Shown: piece by piece, positions 128 to 6,244 of the stretch | How the letters are laid out: each line of letters begins with the position of its first letter | Position numbering within the stretch: position 1 is the first letter of the stretch | NCBI GenBank assembly: GCA_021161545.1 | Contig: JAGHAJ010000244.1 | Span: forward strand, 1 to 6,535 | Direction of reading: 5' to 3' | From: Synergistota bacterium | Lineage (GTDB): Bacteria; Synergistota; JAGHAJ01 | Length of the DNA stretch: 6,535 bases | Translations under genes and position numbers: made by a program | Notes under the pieces: generated by a model | The model's database searches: none | What the model saw: the letters and a program-made list of their open reading frames with translations, nothing else | What the model was told of the DNA's origin: nothing

Positions 128-613
128 ATGAAGAAGGTGAAGTTTATTACATACGGTGGGATACTACTTGCAGTTGCTGCGCTGTTTCCGGGATTACATT
201 TACCTCAGTATGTTACAGGTCCTGTGGTGAACTTTACCATAATCCTTGCCACATATGTTTTGGGCACAATTGGAGGGGTTATCCTGGGTTGCTTAACACC
301 ATGGGTGGCGTTTATATCAGGTTTGATGCCGGTTGCATTTCTTCCACCTATAATAATGGTGGGTAATGGGATATATACACTTAGCTTTGGTCTTCTGAAG
401 AATACAGGTCTCAAGGGGATGATTGCCGGTATAATTGCTGGTGCCTTTCTTAAGTATCTGTTTCTTTCCTATGCTGTAACGCACATTGTTCATGCACCGC
501 CAAAACTTGTGCAGATGTTATCACTGCCGCAGCTATTTACTGCCTTAGTTGGAGGTGTAATTGCGGTACTTGTAGTTAAAACAGGTTACATAAAGGGGGA
601 TGTTTTAAAATGA
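128..613 (+). CDS. small polytopic membrane protein, ECF-transporter S-component-like
   Basis: The 161-residue protein is very hydrophobic, with about six predicted membrane segments (roughly residues 5-21, 31-52, 55-75, 76-92, 96-118 and 135-151). This matches the size and topology of ECF-transporter substrate-binding (S) components, integral membrane proteins that bind a vitamin or cofactor precursor and work with a shared EcfA/A'/T module. Gly-rich helices and an LPQLFTALVGG segment near residues 133-143 suit that fold. No ECF energising genes are nearby, so a shared module elsewhere would be needed. My recollection is that similar short membrane proteins occur beside [FeFe]-hydrogenase genes and are sometimes labelled 'iron hydrogenase', a name nothing here justifies: there is no cluster-binding motif and only one cysteine. 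The ATG follows AAAGGGGG (112-119) at 8 nt; a second AAGGAG (121-126) abuts it. The stop overlaps the next start as ATGA. The substrate cannot be assigned. Confidence 0.65.
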   Translation: MKKVKFITYGGILLAVAALFPGLHLPQYVTGPVVNFTIILATYVLGTIGGVILGCLTPWVAFISGLMPVAFLPPIIMVGNGIYTLSFGLLKNTGLKGMIAGIIAGAFLKYLFLSYAVTHIVHAPPKLVQMLSLPQLFTALVGGVIAVLVVKTGYIKGDVLK

Positions 614-858
614 GGAGGTTGGGAGTGGTTGGTATAGTCATTGAAGATAGGGAAAGACAGGCTCCGAAGGTAAACGAAATCCTTAGTGCCTGTAGTGACA
701 TCATAGTTGGGAGGATGGGATTACCATATAAAGAAAGGGGTGTAAGTGTAATCGCACTTATAGTTGATGGAACAAATGATAGGATAGGAGCTCTGACAGG
801 GAAACTTGGCATGATAGAGGGCGTAAAAGTAAGGTATGCACTGAGTAAGGAGAAATGA
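610..858 (+). CDS. TM1266-family putative iron-only hydrogenase system regulator
   Basis: This 82-residue protein matches the TM1266 family, small cytosolic proteins with an ACT/NikR-C-like ferredoxin fold that are habitually encoded with [FeFe]-hydrogenase maturation genes. Recognisable features are the opening RRLGVVGIVIEDRE strand, a helix with the 'APKVNEILSACSDIIVGRMGLPY' type of pattern (about residues 18-40), the strand VSVIALIVDG (45-54) and a helix ending in GKLGMIEGVKVRYAL (64-78). The regulator label comes from genome context and fold, not from a demonstrated mechanism, and no DNA-binding domain is visible. AAAGGGGG (592-599) lies 10 nt before the ATG. The gene overlaps its predecessor by 4 nt and runs into the lyase gene by up to 4 nt, so the three are probably translated together. 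The full family length is present. Confidence 0.9.
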   Translation: MRRLGVVGIVIEDRERQAPKVNEILSACSDIIVGRMGLPYKERGVSVIALIVDGTNDRIGALTGKLGMIEGVKVRYALSKEK

Positions 859-2240
859 TGGAATACAGGGTTGAAAGAGACCTGTTGGGTGAGATGCAGA
901 TACCTTTGGAGGCATACTGGGGGATTCACACACAAAGAGCATTGAGGAATTTTCCTGTGAGTGGTATTGGGGTGAGACTCGAGATTATAAGAGCTATGGC
1001 AATGGTGAAAAAGGCCTGCTGTGAAGCGAATATAGAACTTGGTTATCTGGACGAGAAGAAGGGTAACGCTATATCTACTGCCTGCGATGAAGTGATACAG
1101 GGTGTTCTTGATGAGCAGTTTCCTTTAGATGCCTTTCAAGGAGGAGCGGGGACATCTATAAACATGAATGTTAACGAGGTCATAGCGAATCGTGCCATAG
1201 AGTTGTTAAGAGGTAAAAAGGGAGATTACTCGGTGGTTCATCCGATAGAGGATGTCAACCTTCATCAATCCACGAATGACACATTCCCCACGGCTGTGAA
1301 AGTGGCTACTATTTACAAACTTAGAGAGTTAAGTGGTGCTATTGCACGATTGCAGGGAGCACTTCAGAGGAAAGAAAAGGAGTTTGCATCTGTTGTCAAA
1401 ATTGGTAGAACTGAGCTGCAGGAGGCTGTTCCTATGACTCTTGGAGCTGAGTTTTCAGGGTTTGCAGAGGCGATATCACGTGACAGATGGAGAACATTTA
1501 AGTGTGAGGAGAGGCTCAGGGTGATAAACATAGGTGGAACTGCAATAGGCACGGGTATAACGGCACCAAGGGATTACATCTTTCTGGTTGTGGACAAACT
1601 ACGTGAGATTACGGGGCTTGGACTTGCACGTGCTGAAAATCTGATTGGTGAAACCGCTAATGTGGACCCTTTCGTTGAGGTATCTGGAATAGTAAACGCG
1701 CATGTTACCAATCTTATCAAGCTATCTGGTGATCTAAGGCTTATGAATCTCTTGAAGGAAATTGAGCTCCCTTCAGTTCAGGCAGGTTCATCTATTATGC
1801 CTGGTAAGCTAAACCCGGTTATACTTGAAAGTGTTATGCAGGTTGGTTTCTGGTGTATGGCATCTGATGGTGTTATTTCTCGTGTTGCCGCGCATGGCAG
1901 CTTTCAGATAAATGAGTTTTTACCTTTACTTTCGCATGCAATGATATCTTCTATGGATATGCTTATCAGGACGGATAGGCTTCTTGCGAAACATATCAAT
2001 GAGATTCGGTGTAAGTCTGATTGGTGTGCAAGGTATGTGAATGAAAGCACAAGTATAATTACTGCCTTTTTACCTTACATCGGGTATAAGAGGGCAGAGA
2101 AGTTGCTTAACGAGTTTAGGAATATAGGGAAAGGCAATTTTAGAGAGTTTTTGAATAGCAGGCTTGGGCATGACCTTGTTGATGAAGTTCTTTCTCCTTA
2201 TAGGCTGACATCGTTGGGGTACAGGAGGTCGAGGAGATGA
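855..2240 (+). CDS. aspA: aspartate ammonia-lyase (aspartase/fumarase superfamily), variant active site
   Basis: The 461-residue protein is a class II fumarase/aspartase-fold lyase, probably converting L-aspartate to fumarate plus ammonia as a cytosolic homotetramer. Conserved blocks: GGAGTS (residues 96-101), which favours aspartase over fumarase (GSGTQS), HQSTND (137-142), GRTELQEAVPMTLG (184-197) and the flexible signature loop GSSIMPGKLNP (311-321) with the likely catalytic base Ser312 plus Lys318 and Asn320. Two oddities: Glu187 occupies the position after Thr186 that is His in fumarases and Bacillus aspartase and Gln in E. coli AspA. The near-universal SGPRxG loop before the EI-LP segment is missing, with DLRLMNLLKEIELP (293-306) about five residues shorter than normal. 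The substrate is therefore inferred, not certain. AAGGAG (847-852) lies 2 nt from the first ATG and 5 nt from a second ATG at 858, which may be the true start. Its place between the TM1266-like gene and hydF suggests ammonia supply for H-cluster synthesis. Confidence 0.85.
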   Translation: MMEYRVERDLLGEMQIPLEAYWGIHTQRALRNFPVSGIGVRLEIIRAMAMVKKACCEANIELGYLDEKKGNAISTACDEVIQGVLDEQFPLDAFQGGAGTSINMNVNEVIANRAIELLRGKKGDYSVVHPIEDVNLHQSTNDTFPTAVKVATIYKLRELSGAIARLQGALQRKEKEFASVVKIGRTELQEAVPMTLGAEFSGFAEAISRDRWRTFKCEERLRVINIGGTAIGTGITAPRDYIFLVVDKLREITGLGLARAENLIGETANVDPFVEVSGIVNAHVTNLIKLSGDLRLMNLLKEIELPSVQAGSSIMPGKLNPVILESVMQVGFWCMASDGVISRVAAHGSFQINEFLPLLSHAMISSMDMLIRTDRLLAKHINEIRCKSDWCARYVNESTSIITAFLPYIGYKRAEKLLNEFRNIGKGNFREFLNSRLGHDLVDEVLSPYRLTSLGYRRSRR

Positions 2241-3538
2241 ATAGTACACCCAAGGGAAATAGGTTGCATATAGCATTGTCTGGAAGGGCAAATGTTGGGA
2301 AGTCCAGCTTTCTGAACCTCGTTGCTGGACAGGATGTTGCCATTACATCTCCTATTGCGGGAACTACCACTGATGTGGTTGAAAAAACCATGGAGCTTTT
2401 GCCGATAGGACCGGTAGTCTTTCTGGATACAGGTGGTATAGATGACAGAACTCCTCTTGCTGAGAAGAGGTACAAAAAGACGACCTCTGTTTTCAATCGT
2501 GCTGATGTAGTGGTATTGATAGTTGAGGCGGAGGTATGGACTGAATATGAAGAACACATCGTTGCGGAAGCAAGGAAGAGAAAAGTGCCCATTTTGGCGA
2601 TTGTGAACAAGAGTGATTTGAGAAGCCCCTCTCAGGATTTTATTACGCTTTTGAAGGGTTACGTAGATGATGTTATATCTGTGTGCAGTCTGGATTTTAC
2701 CGGCAGAGACAGATATGTTGATGCTTTGAAGCGTTTTCTTTTGAAGAATGCTCCTGCAGACTTTCTACAGCCACCTCCTCTAATAGGTGACCTGCTTCCA
2801 CCGGGGGGATTGGCAGTCCTCGTTGTTCCGATAGATTTGGAGGCACCCAAAGGAAGATTGATCTTGCCACAGGTGCAGACTATAAGGGATGTTCTGGATA
2901 ACGATGCAATGGTAGTTGTCGTGAAGGAAAGGGAGCTGGCATACCTTTTAAGTTTGCTTAAGAGGCCGCCTGATATAGTAGTTTGTGATTCTCAGGTTGT
3001 GTTGAAGATGTGTGCAGATACTCCAAGAGAAGTGCCGTGTACTACCTTTTCTATACTGTTTTCCAGGTATAAGGGAAATCTTGTTGAACAGGCTCGTGGA
3101 GTGGCACATATTGAGGAACTTAAACCAGGTGACAAGGTGCTTATTGCAGAAGCCTGTTCCCATCATCCGTTAGAAGATGATATAGGTAGAGTGAAGATAC
3201 CCAGGTGGCTCAGACAATATGTGGGTATGGATGTAAGGATAGATGTGTATGCGGGCAGGGATTATCCCGACAATTTGCAGGATTATAAACTCGTTATCCA
3301 CTGTGGAGGGTGTATGCTTAACCGAAAAGAGATGCTGAACAGGATTCAGATGGCATTGGATGCAGGTGTATCAATTACCAATTATGGGGTTTGTATATCC
3401 TTCCTTCAAGGAGTTATTAAAAGAACGCTTTCTCCATTTCCTGCTGCACTGATGGCGTTTGAGGAAGAGTTGGAAAAAATGAGAGAAAGGGGTGTTGGTA
3501 ATGGTTTTGTCTGTGAAGGAAAAGAAATGGATGGATAG
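2237..3538 (+). CDS. hydF: [FeFe]-hydrogenase maturation GTPase and scaffold HydF
   Basis: HydF is the cytosolic scaffold on which the 2Fe subcluster is completed before transfer to apo-hydrogenase. At 433 residues it has all three expected parts. An N-terminal Era/TrmE-like GTPase domain carries the P-loop GRANVGKSS (16-24), switch threonines TTTD (43-46), DTGG (64-67) and NKSD (124-127). A dimerisation domain is marked by GDLLPPGGLAVLVVPIDLEAP (about 184-204). The C-terminal cluster domain has CSH (Cys307, His309) and HCGGC (His355, Cys356, Cys359), fitting the family CXHX(44-53)HCXXC pattern with 45 residues between the histidines. The ATG overlaps the lyase stop by 4 nt and has AGGAGG (2223-2228) 8 nt upstream. 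After the SPFP segment (399-402) the tail runs on for about 30 residues. Its last 12 codons overlap the preferred hydG start, so this tail is probably not structurally essential. Confidence 0.97.
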   Translation: MNSTPKGNRLHIALSGRANVGKSSFLNLVAGQDVAITSPIAGTTTDVVEKTMELLPIGPVVFLDTGGIDDRTPLAEKRYKKTTSVFNRADVVVLIVEAEVWTEYEEHIVAEARKRKVPILAIVNKSDLRSPSQDFITLLKGYVDDVISVCSLDFTGRDRYVDALKRFLLKNAPADFLQPPPLIGDLLPPGGLAVLVVPIDLEAPKGRLILPQVQTIRDVLDNDAMVVVVKERELAYLLSLLKRPPDIVVCDSQVVLKMCADTPREVPCTTFSILFSRYKGNLVEQARGVAHIEELKPGDKVLIAEACSHHPLEDDIGRVKIPRWLRQYVGMDVRIDVYAGRDYPDNLQDYKLVIHCGGCMLNRKEMLNRIQMALDAGVSITNYGVCISFLQGVIKRTLSPFPAALMAFEEELEKMRERGVGNGFVCEGKEMDG

Positions 3539-5012
3539 TGTTATTAAGGAAGAAGAAGTGAGGAGGTATATGGATGGGGAGTATGACTTTATAGACGATG
3601 AGGAGATATGGAGTAAACTCCTTTCCAACAGGAGTCCAGATAAAAAGCGAATAGAGGATATACTCCAGAAATCCCTTGCTATTGAGACACTCACTCCTGA
3701 TGAAACTGCTGCACTGCTCAATGTAGAAGACCCTGAACTGTGGGATGAAATCTTCAGGGTAGCAGGCGAGGTGAAGAAGAAAGTATATGACAACAGGATT
3801 GTGACGTTTGCGCCTCTGTACTGTAGTAATTACTGTGTGAACAACTGCCTATACTGTGGTTTTAGAAGAGAAAACCTCAGGGAGAAGAGAAGAAAGCTCT
3901 CTTTGGAAGAAGTGAAAGAAGAGACAAAAGTGCTTGCAGGTGAGATAGGGCATAAGCGGTTGATAGTGGTGTATGGTGAGCATCCACTTTCAGATGCCAG
4001 ATATATTGCCGATACGATTGAGGCGATATACAGTGTGAAAGTTCCTACTCGTAATGGTTTTGGGCAGATAAGAAGAGTGAATGTTAATGCGGCACCCATG
4101 TCCATAGATAACCTCAGACTCTTAAGAGATGTTGGCATAGGAACGTATCAGGTATTTCAAGAGACTTACAGTCATGAGCTGTATGCTAAGGTGCACCCAG
4201 AAGGCACCATAAAGCACGACTACAGGTGGAGACTTTACTGTATGCACAGGGCACTTGAAGCAGGGATAGACGATGTTGCCATAGGTGTGCTGTTTGGCCT
4301 CTATGACTGGCGGTTTGAAGTGATGGGATTATTGTATCATGCCAGAGAATTGGAGAAGCGTTTTGATGGCATAGGTCCACACACGATTTCTTTCCCAAGA
4401 TTGATGCCAGCTGCAGAGGCACCCTTTGTACAGGAGACGAGATATAAAGTATCTGATGAGGATTTTAAGAGATTAGTGGCGGTGTTGAGGTTGGCGGTGC
4501 CTTATACAGGACTTATATTGACGGCACGTGAGACAGCGGATATTCGTAGGCAGCTGATACCTTTGGGTATTACGCAGACGGATGCCTCTACTAAGATAGG
4601 TATAGGTGCTTACAGTGAAAACTACGACGAACAGGAAATAGAAAGGCAACAGTTTATTATAGGAGACCCCAGAAGCCTTGATGAGGTAATAAGAGAGCTT
4701 GCAGAGATGGGATATATAACCTCTTTTTGCACAGCGGGATATAGATGTGGTAGGACGGGAGATAGAATTATGAAACTTCTGCGTTCAGGTAAGGAAGGAA
4801 GATTTTGTAAACTAAACGCTATATTGACATTCAGAGAGTGGCTGGATGACTTCGCAAGCGAACAGACCAGGCATATTGGGGAGCAGATTATAGAAAAGGA
4901 GATTGAAGAAGTGAAAATGCAGGTGCCTGAGAACTACTCGGAAACGGTATTTAATGAACTCCTTAAGTATTACGAGAGGATAAAGAATGGGGAAAGAGAC
5001 CTCTACTTTTAG
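3501..5012 (+). CDS. hydG: [FeFe]-hydrogenase maturation radical SAM tyrosine lyase HydG, variant auxiliary-cluster motif
   Basis: HydG cleaves tyrosine to p-cresol and dehydroglycine, then makes CO and cyanide that are loaded on an Fe-cysteine synthon at its auxiliary cluster. With the start at 3501 it has 503 residues. The radical SAM CX3CX2C triad is Cys112, Cys116 and Cys119, preceded by an extra Cys108. GPHTIS supplies His294, matching the residue that binds the dangler iron. The C-terminal GERDLYF ending is typical of the family. The normal CX2CX22C motif for the second cluster is altered: Cys410 and Cys436 are in place, but the middle position 413 is Gly (GGA) and a new Cys416 follows, giving CX5CX19C. 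The HydG-like SAGS segment reads TDASTKIGIGAY (about 359-370). The ATG at 3501 has AAAGGGG 8 nt upstream and overlaps hydF by 38 nt; ATG 3531 and ATG 3570 are alternatives, the last giving the length closest to the family norm. It could be a HydG subclade or a relative, but the context supports HydG. Confidence 0.93.
   Translation: MVLSVKEKKWMDSVIKEEEVRRYMDGEYDFIDDEEIWSKLLSNRSPDKKRIEDILQKSLAIETLTPDETAALLNVEDPELWDEIFRVAGEVKKKVYDNRIVTFAPLYCSNYCVNNCLYCGFRRENLREKRRKLSLEEVKEETKVLAGEIGHKRLIVVYGEHPLSDARYIADTIEAIYSVKVPTRNGFGQIRRVNVNAAPMSIDNLRLLRDVGIGTYQVFQETYSHELYAKVHPEGTIKHDYRWRLYCMHRALEAGIDDVAIGVLFGLYDWRFEVMGLLYHARELEKRFDGIGPHTISFPRLMPAAEAPFVQETRYKVSDEDFKRLVAVLRLAVPYTGLILTARETADIRRQLIPLGITQTDASTKIGIGAYSENYDEQEIERQQFIIGDPRSLDEVIRELAEMGYITSFCTAGYRCGRTGDRIMKLLRSGKEGRFCKLNAILTFREWLDDFASEQTRHIGEQIIEKEIEEVKMQVPENYSETVFNELLKYYERIKNGERDLYF
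3561..3566 (+). promoter_or_regulatory. Shine-Dalgarno-like AGGAGG, may decide the hydG start
   Basis: A perfect AGGAGG lies 3 nt before an in-frame ATG at 3570. That start would give a 480-residue HydG beginning MDGEYDFIDDEEI, close to where family members usually begin, and would remove the overlap with hydF. The spacing is shorter than usual, so I kept 3501 as the main call. Confidence 0.3.
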
Positions 5013-5253
5013 AGAATTTTCTGAGCTGGCATTCGAGATAAAGCGAAAGTATGGAATTGGCCTTCAGTTGGTTGAAATAATTGGTAGTAGATGGTCTTTT
5101 GTGGCAGGAGAGGAGGACGAGGAAAGTTTTCTTCCCCCTGAGCGCATTCGTGTAGCGAAGCGATTTGGCATTGTTTCTGCATGTTGGAGTAGATTACCGG
5201 ATTTTGAAAAGGAGAGGATACTAACTGTGGTGAAACGATATGACGAAAGATGA
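4987..5253 (+). CDS. uncharacterised 88-residue protein between hydG and hydE
   Basis: I do not recognise this family. The protein is small, soluble and strongly charged, with no signal peptide, membrane segment or metal-binding motif, and only one cysteine (Cys66). The N-terminal third reads as an amphipathic helix (FSELAFEIKRKYGI, 11-24), followed by a probable strand LQLVEIIGSRWSFVAG (26-41), an acidic linker GEEDEES (41-47), a PPERIRVAKRFGIVSACW stretch (50-67) and a final helix (72-87). It is likely a real gene: GAGAGGA (4974-4980) sits 6 nt before the ATG, it overlaps hydG by 26 nt and hydE by 14 nt, and it fills what would otherwise be a 227-nt gap in a gap-free operon. Its position suggests an accessory role with HydG or HydE; that is inference from context only. 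Confidence 0.75.
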   Translation: MGKETSTFREFSELAFEIKRKYGIGLQLVEIIGSRWSFVAGEEDEESFLPPERIRVAKRFGIVSACWSRLPDFEKERILTVVKRYDER

Positions 5254-6244
5254 GATTTTGTATTACCTTAAAACCCATCATGAAGTGGATATGTACGGAA
5301 TTTTTGAGTTGGCAGATAGAGTTCGTAAGAGATACTGCGGTGATGGGGTGCACCTGAGGGGCATAATAGAGTTTTCAAATTGTTGTGTGAGAAACTGCCT
5401 GTATTGTGGTTTAAGGAGGGGAAATGGGAGGGCCCGTAGATACAGAATGACGGTGGATGAGGTTTATCAGGTTGCAGAGTGTGCTGTAGACGCTGGTGTG
5501 AAGACGATAGTGTTGCAGTCAGGGGAGGACCCATACTATAGTGTGAGTGAATTATGCAGAATGGTTGAGCGTGTAAAGGAACTTGATGTTGCTGTTACGC
5601 TTTCTCTGGGTGAGAAGAGCTATAGGGACTATAGGTCTCTAAAGGAGGCTGGGGCAGATAGATATCTGCTGAAATTTGAGACATCTGATAAGAGACTTTA
5701 TGCACTTTTGAAGCCGGATTCTTCGTATGTAAACAGGTTTAGGTGTCTTGAGTATCTCTCAGAATTGGGGTATCAGGTGGGCTCTGGTAATATGGTAGGT
5801 TTACCCAACCAGTCTTCTGAAAGTATTGCTGATGATATACTCCTATTTGGGATGCTTGAACTCGATATGGTGGGCATAGGTCCTTTTATACCACACCCTG
5901 ATACTCCTTTGGGTGGCTTTAATGGTGGTTCATCTGGTTTGACTGTAAAGGTCATAGCACTGACGAGGATACTCACAAGAAATGCCCATATACCTGCAAC
6001 AACTGCTCTGGCCACGGTGGACCCTGAAGGTAGGAGGAAAGCCCTGTGTTGCGGTGCAAATGTTGTAATGCCTAATGTGACGCCGTTTTCATATGCAGCC
6101 GATTACGAAATATATCCAGATAAATTGACCGAGGATACAATTGATGGGGCTAAGAAACTTGTTTCTTCCGTTGGCAGGTATGTTGCCAAAGGCTATGGTC
6201 ATAGCCTGAAGATGGGTGGGAATGTTAACATTCCCACCCATTAG
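5240..6244 (+). CDS. hydE: [FeFe]-hydrogenase maturation radical SAM enzyme HydE
   Basis: HydE is the cytosolic radical SAM enzyme that acts on the Fe(CO)2(CN)-cysteine synthon released by HydG, on the way to the diiron core assembled on HydF. The 334-residue protein has the radical SAM CX3CX2C triad Cys49, Cys53, Cys56 in a CCVRNCLYCGLR segment, the SGED motif (94-97) after the second strand, LKFETSD (144-150) and the conserved MVGLPNQ and GIGPFIPHPDTPL blocks (about 185-224). No cysteine follows Cys271, so the optional C-terminal auxiliary cluster found in Thermotoga maritima HydE is absent, which is common and not needed for activity. The ATG overlaps the upstream small gene by 14 nt with only a weak GGTGA ribosome site, so it probably depends on translational coupling. 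The last ten residues, from Met325, are encoded entirely by the terminator palindrome, and they extend past the usual SLK end. Confidence 0.96.
   Translation: MTKDEILYYLKTHHEVDMYGIFELADRVRKRYCGDGVHLRGIIEFSNCCVRNCLYCGLRRGNGRARRYRMTVDEVYQVAECAVDAGVKTIVLQSGEDPYYSVSELCRMVERVKELDVAVTLSLGEKSYRDYRSLKEAGADRYLLKFETSDKRLYALLKPDSSYVNRFRCLEYLSELGYQVGSGNMVGLPNQSSESIADDILLFGMLELDMVGIGPFIPHPDTPLGGFNGGSSGLTVKVIALTRILTRNAHIPATTALATVDPEGRRKALCCGANVVMPNVTPFSYAADYEIYPDKLTEDTIDGAKKLVSSVGRYVAKGYGHSLKMGGNVNIPTH
6191..6206 (+). repeat. small inverted repeat in the 3' end of hydE
   Basis: GGCTATG and CATAGCC are exact reverse complements separated by GT, so they form a 6-bp stem with a four-base loop. It lies five bases before the larger palindrome, giving two hairpins in tandem at the end of the transcript. 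A role in 3' end protection or termination is inference. Confidence 0.5.

Follow-up and report, generated by a model that had tools for sequence, protein, structure and literature searches.

What is known of the HydG mechanism comes from canonical enzymes, and the auxiliary-cluster motif CX2CX22C is treated as essential. A reading made from the sequence alone proposed that the hydG gene in the window (the whole stretch of DNA analysed here, 6,535 nucleotides) carries CX5CX19C instead. This raises the questions of whether the rearrangement is real, how far it extends among HydG proteins, and what kind of enzyme it belongs to.

The window gene encodes HydG

The features of the window are listed in Table 1. 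Residues are numbered from GTG 3492, which adds three to the earlier numbering from ATG 3501. Translation more likely begins at ATG 3531, judging from AAGGA ahead of it and the stop of hydF just after it. The subfamily bearing Asp364, described below, is here named D-type. Counts are given as alignment rows: 137 D-type rows (five of which repeat genomes), 160 canonical rows, and 129 rows without Cys416.

By every general test the window gene is HydG. Its product scores above the cut-off of the equivalog model TIGR03955 (472 versus 312.15 bits) and below that of the ThiH model TIGR02351 (248 versus 380 bits). The AlphaFold model (pLDDT 96) has 4wcx_A as its best match in the PDB, with an rmsd of 1.5 angstrom over 477 columns. 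The radical SAM motif CX3CX2C is present in the window HydG, in all canonical HydG, in 13/13 ThiH and in 128–129 of the 129 rows without Cys416. His297, which we take to be the equivalent of the HydG ligand of the fifth (dangler) iron, is kept as the sequence-only reading had stated; the position is His in 137/137 D-type and 158/160 canonical rows and is not His in ThiH.

The four codons of the auxiliary-cluster region (Cys, Gly, Cys and Cys, at 4728, 4737, 4746 and 4806) lie exactly where they had been placed. In an ungapped alignment with T. italicus HydG (4wcx), CTAGYRC of the window HydG stands opposite CTACYRM. The rearrangement from CX2CX22C to CX5CX19C (C-T-A-G-Y-R-C...C) is thus real.

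Table 1 Features of the window, with the basis of each assignment
Feature	Positions	Strand	Basis
ECF-type transporter substrate-binding subunit, ahead of the TM1266-like gene	128–613	+	PF12822
TM1266-like putative iron-hydrogenase regulator	610–858	+	TIGR03959, 115 bits
Aspartate ammonia-lyase family gene (aspA)	855–2240	+	NF008909, 552 bits
hydF	2237–3538	+	TIGR03918, 527 bits
hydG, D-type (Asp364, CX5CX19C) radical SAM maturase	3492–5012	+	TIGR03955, 472 bits
Radical SAM CX3CX2C cysteines, Cys115, Cys119, Cys122	3834–3857	+	Motif present in the window HydG
His297 (294 from ATG 3501), CAC; equivalent of the fifth (dangler) iron His	4380–4382	+	Row counts
Ala345, replaces phenolate-binding Thr (ThiH T299)	4524–4526	+	Ungapped alignment to 7pd1
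Arg352 (ThiH R306), kept	4545–4547	+	Row counts
Asp364, replaces phenolate-binding Ser (ThiH S318); clade hallmark	4581–4583	+	Row counts
Cys413 (410 from ATG 3501), TGC; first auxiliary-cluster ligand, kept	4728–4730	+	Invariant
Gly416 (413), GGA; site of the canonical middle cluster Cys	4737–4739	+	Codon reading and alignment
Cys419 (416), TGT; new cysteine, proposed replacement ligand	4746–4748	+	121/129 D-type rows without Cys416
Cys439 (436), TGT; last auxiliary-cluster ligand, kept	4806–4808	+	Invariant
88-aa ORF between hydG and hydE, overlapping both gene ends	4987–5253	+	Unnamed small family
hydE	5240–6244	+	TIGR03956, 324 bits (cut-off 255)

The rearranged motif belongs to one widespread clade

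A protein search of genome contigs yielded 80 relatives with 61–77 percent identity to the window HydG. Nearly all of them read directly C-T-[A/S]-G-Y-R-C, the last Cys being at its usual position; the canonical motif occurs in none of these 80 nearest relatives. Relatives with CX5CX19C come from about 20 named phyla, both bacterial and archaeal; the groups include Omnitrophota, Thermodesulfobacteriota, Planctomycetota, Fibrobacterota, Spirochaetota, Thermotogota, Archaeoglobaceae and others. With three further phylum-level groups sampled, the set comprises 267 non-redundant HydG, which carry CxxCxx(non-Cys) in 162 cases, CxxGxxC in 94, CxxDxxC in five, CxxGxxA in four and CxxDxxL in two. The middle Cys and the new Cys occur together in 0/267. 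The frequency of CX5CX19C is far beyond chance. Moreover, Gly416 is encoded by GGA (35), GGT (32), GGG (11) and GGC (29), and both Cys codons are used at 419; since every Gly codon and both Cys codons are in use, the arrangement is an old one, maintained by purifying selection.

In trees with ThiH as outgroup, the D-type proteins are nested within canonical HydG. The Asp364 clade arose once, with a support of 98 in a quick tree search from which the crown (the phenolate-binding residues described below) and motif columns were removed. The earlier suggestion of a distinct subclade, rather than a lone mutation, agrees with this result and with the motif shared by the nearest relatives.

The window lies on a short contig of an assembly that is fragmented, which could favor an error of sequencing or assembly, or a single degenerate copy. 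We rejected error and lone mutation, and give this explanation a negligible probability, on account of the motif being common to about 80 closest relatives, the use of all synonymous Gly codons, and the gene being the sole copy.

The motif itself is not new. C-x(5)-C-x(19)-C has been listed for the HydG of Clostridium autoethanogenum (CLAU_RS03260), C. drakei and C. scatologenes, where the variant stands in a table only, with no clade, pocket change or ligand wandering described (PMC9431212). These three proteins share the auxiliary motif spacing of the window HydG and, judged by the published motif, probably belong to the D-type subfamily. In the searchable literature we found no description of the clade, the pocket change, the forms lacking both Cys416 and Cys419, or the small ORF after hydG.

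The substrate pocket is rewritten in the same clade

In tyrosine-bound ThiH, T299, S318 and S321 hold the substrate phenolate and R306 points at it; the residues of this phenolate crown were called strictly conserved in HydG by the authors (PMC9046217). The alignment leading from ThiH (7pd1) through canonical to D-type HydG has no gaps across the pocket stretch, and maps T299 and S318 onto positions 345 and 364. Position 345 is Thr in 160/160 canonical rows and Ala, Cys or Val in 137/137 D-type rows. Position 364 is Ser in 158/160 canonical rows and 13/13 ThiH, and Asp in 129/129 rows without Cys416 as well as in eight rows with it. The two positions go together: Thr345 with Ser364 is found in 158/160 canonical HydG and Ala/Cys/Val345 with Asp364 in 137/137 D-type rows, while no intermediate with only one of the pair changed occurs among the rows compared. 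Asp364 is further accompanied by Thr344 and a hydrophobic residue at 369, nearly always Ile. Arg352 is present in 158/160 canonical and 129/137 D-type rows. The window HydG has Ala345, Asp364, Thr367 and Arg352 at the crown positions, in place of the canonical Thr/Ser/Ser and Arg. As placed by this alignment, two of the three crown hydroxyls are lost and one acid is gained in the D-type clade.

The sequence-only reading had noted that the nearby TDASTKIGIGAY and GEHP segments differ from well-studied HydGs. Both hold as markers of the clade, but TDAST and the preceding TARE are not merely nearby differences: they align to the phenolate-binding crown of ThiH, so the substrate pocket is rewritten as well.

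We suspected at first that Asp364 is a new ligand of the auxiliary cluster, given its perfect association with the loss of Cys416, and dropped the idea after the alignment with tyrosine-bound ThiH placed Asp364 in the substrate pocket. The aligned S318 of ThiH binds the substrate phenolate, and in HydG the auxiliary and radical SAM clusters sit at opposite ends of the barrel, about 2.4 nm apart (PMC6212873), which makes a ligand role of Asp364 very improbable.

A changed pocket may also mean a changed substrate. D-type HydG could cleave a different amino acid, either another aromatic one or a differently protonated tyrosine, its specificity being altered, and the cysteine shift would follow from changed handling of dehydroglycine. 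Consistent with this, Thr345, Ser364 and Thr369 of the pocket region, which vary little or not at all in canonical HydG, have all changed jointly, intermediates at 345/364 being absent, and the changes of Ala161 to Tyr and of Ile200 to Ala also set the clade apart. On electrostatic grounds an Asp is an awkward neighbor for a phenolate, which argues against unchanged tyrosine binding. Moreover, neither of the two known positions for the acid partner of the substrate carboxylate holds an acid (160 is Val and 199 is Asn), although the acid at 160 is missing in some canonical HydG too. Against a new substrate stand Arg346, Arg352 and the beta-bulge (aligned to ThiH without a gap), all of which are kept; the one-residue beta-bulge insertion together with R306, the equivalent of Arg352, marks tyrosine over tryptophan (PMC9046217). 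Because the bulge and Arg352 are kept, we judge tyrosine the likelier substrate, and regard a different one as unlikely.

Two side observations concern the same region. The codon site of position 360 (window 4569–4571, forward strand), which precedes strand beta-8, encodes Ile in the window HydG; Cys360 is found in 61 of the 129 rows that lack the middle Cys, and canonical rows do not have Cys as one of their common residues there. Two genomes (G368 and G401) encode, besides a canonical HydG, another HydG-like protein that scores under the family cut-off (L331 and L342). These proteins are probably the two rows with Leu364, Trp352, Lys346 and an intact middle Cys, and are possibly paralogues with another substrate.

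The pocket changed before the middle cluster cysteine

The loss of Cys416 is perfectly nested inside the presence of Asp364. All 129 rows without Cys416 have Asp364, and the eight other Asp364 rows keep the old Cys416, hence the pocket swap came first. Position 416 changes only inside the D-type clade, where it has done so several times, with Cys, Gly and Asp interchanging between close neighbors. Cys419 is found in 121/129 rows without Cys416 and in 0/160 canonical rows, in line with the sequence-only reading that this site is usually not Cys; its near-constant presence without Cys416, and its absence where Cys416 is kept, count for a relocated ligand.

Neither Cys416 nor Cys419 is present in six distinct genomes, four with CTAGYRA (L200, L203, L206 and L212) and two with CTADYRL (L322 and L327), and all six have [FeFe]-hydrogenases. 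Cys419 is therefore not universally needed, which is a point against its relocation as a full account. By sequence, the main other candidate cysteines in these proteins are Cys360 (L200, L203), Cys404 (L206, L212) and Cys428 (L322, L327). The middle ligand thus appears to be relaxed in the clade and would usually be re-supplied by Cys419.

These exceptions bear on another possibility, that the auxiliary site is no longer a three-cysteine [4Fe-4S] site and has become a two-cysteine or mononuclear one, with Cys419 playing a structural role. In the L200/L203 and L206/L212 lineages, Cys413 and Cys439 are the only motif cysteines left, and these proteins are the sole or an additional HydG in hydrogenase-bearing genomes; Gly and Asp are swapped at 416 between the near neighbors L214 and L217. 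Set against this are the retention of Cys419 in 94 percent of the rows without Cys416, across about 20 phyla, and the spare cysteines at 360, 404 and 428 in the lineages without Cys419. We consider such a reduced site improbable.

Gene context and hydrogenase clients

Both hydE and hydF are inside the window, together with the TM1266-like gene and aspA, a known neighbor of hydF (PMC11736057). This company and the family score count for a normal HydG role. So do the copy number and the co-occurrence with hydrogenases. The D-type protein is the only HydG over the cut-off in 34/35 genomes of the window HydG's own type, and [FeFe]-hydrogenase is present in 29/36 genomes of that type (the window's own among the 36), often on the same contig. 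Among cultured organisms, Athalassotoga saccharophila (L039, L122 and L172) has a D-type protein as its one HydG over the cut-off, alongside a hydrogenase gene. The H-cluster motif MPCxxKxxE was found in 30/30 hydrogenase loci read. [FeFe]-hydrogenases are also present in 20/20 further D-type genomes with odd motifs, among them the forms with two motif cysteines; in 19 of these 20 there is no second HydG over the cut-off. In the window's own assembly, which is 82% complete, no hydrogenase large subunit was found, which may weigh against a normal role.

The 88-aa ORF has homologues directly after hydG in 59/108 D-type loci (six loci with an unparsed pocket motif counted in) and in 0/98 canonical loci. 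It matches no Pfam or NCBIfam family. The family has a G-x-RWS core, a helix, four strands and a helix; the model (pLDDT 91) gave no significant match in a fold search of the PDB, the best E value being 0.24. A second contig (C120) of the window's own assembly matches window positions 4948–6232 at 94.5 percent, which would mean either that the assembly mixes strains or that this stretch is present twice.

Discussion

The window HydG resembles the canonical enzymes of T. italicus (4wcx) and Carboxydothermus hydrogenoformans (4rtb) in its fold, radical SAM Cys triad, dangler-iron His, operon role, equivalents of Arg300 and Arg306, and first and last auxiliary cysteines. It differs from them in the middle auxiliary Cys, which is Gly with a new Cys three codons on, and in the phenolate crown, where Thr is replaced by Ala and Ser by Asp. 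With ThiH of Thermosinus carboxydivorans (7pd1) it shares the radical SAM tyrosine lyase fold and the frame of the pocket, whereas ThiH has no auxiliary cluster and keeps Thr299 and Ser318.

We favor, as the probable explanation, a second, widespread HydG subfamily that performs the normal HydG job with a rebuilt pocket and, subsequently, a cluster cysteine relocated to Cys419. The single origin of the clade and the perfect nesting of Cys416 loss within Asp364 both count for it. By radical SAM chemistry, D-type HydG would cleave an amino acid, most likely still L-tyrosine, to dehydroglycine, which would be converted to CO and CN on an auxiliary Fe–S cluster with a His-bound fifth iron. The product, the Fe(CO)2CN synthon, would feed HydE, HydF and the [FeFe]-hydrogenase. 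In the first step of its evolution, the pocket for the aromatic end of the substrate lost the Thr and Ser hydroxyls and gained Asp364, which, backed by Arg352, may share a proton with the phenol of tyrosine. In the second step, and in the Asp364 background only, the middle cluster Cys was given up and in most lineages replaced by Cys419, so that Cys413, Cys419 and Cys439 presumably hold the cluster. A few lineages may instead rely on Asp416 or on another cysteine (360, 404 and 428 being the sole sequence candidates), or two cysteines may suffice.

A more far-reaching proposal, which we think unlikely, is that a major HydG branch uses L-tyrosine differently or not at all and assembles the Fe(CO)2CN unit at an auxiliary site with a middle ligand that shifts freely among Cys416, Cys419, Asp416 and other cysteines, possibly aided by the clade-specific small protein encoded after hydG.

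A motif long held essential, CX2CX22C, proves replaceable in nature, and annotation based on it overlooks or misreads a large part of the HydG proteins. Natural enzymes without the middle ligand, together with the transitional forms still alive, open the roles of each ligand and of the phenolate pocket to direct testing.
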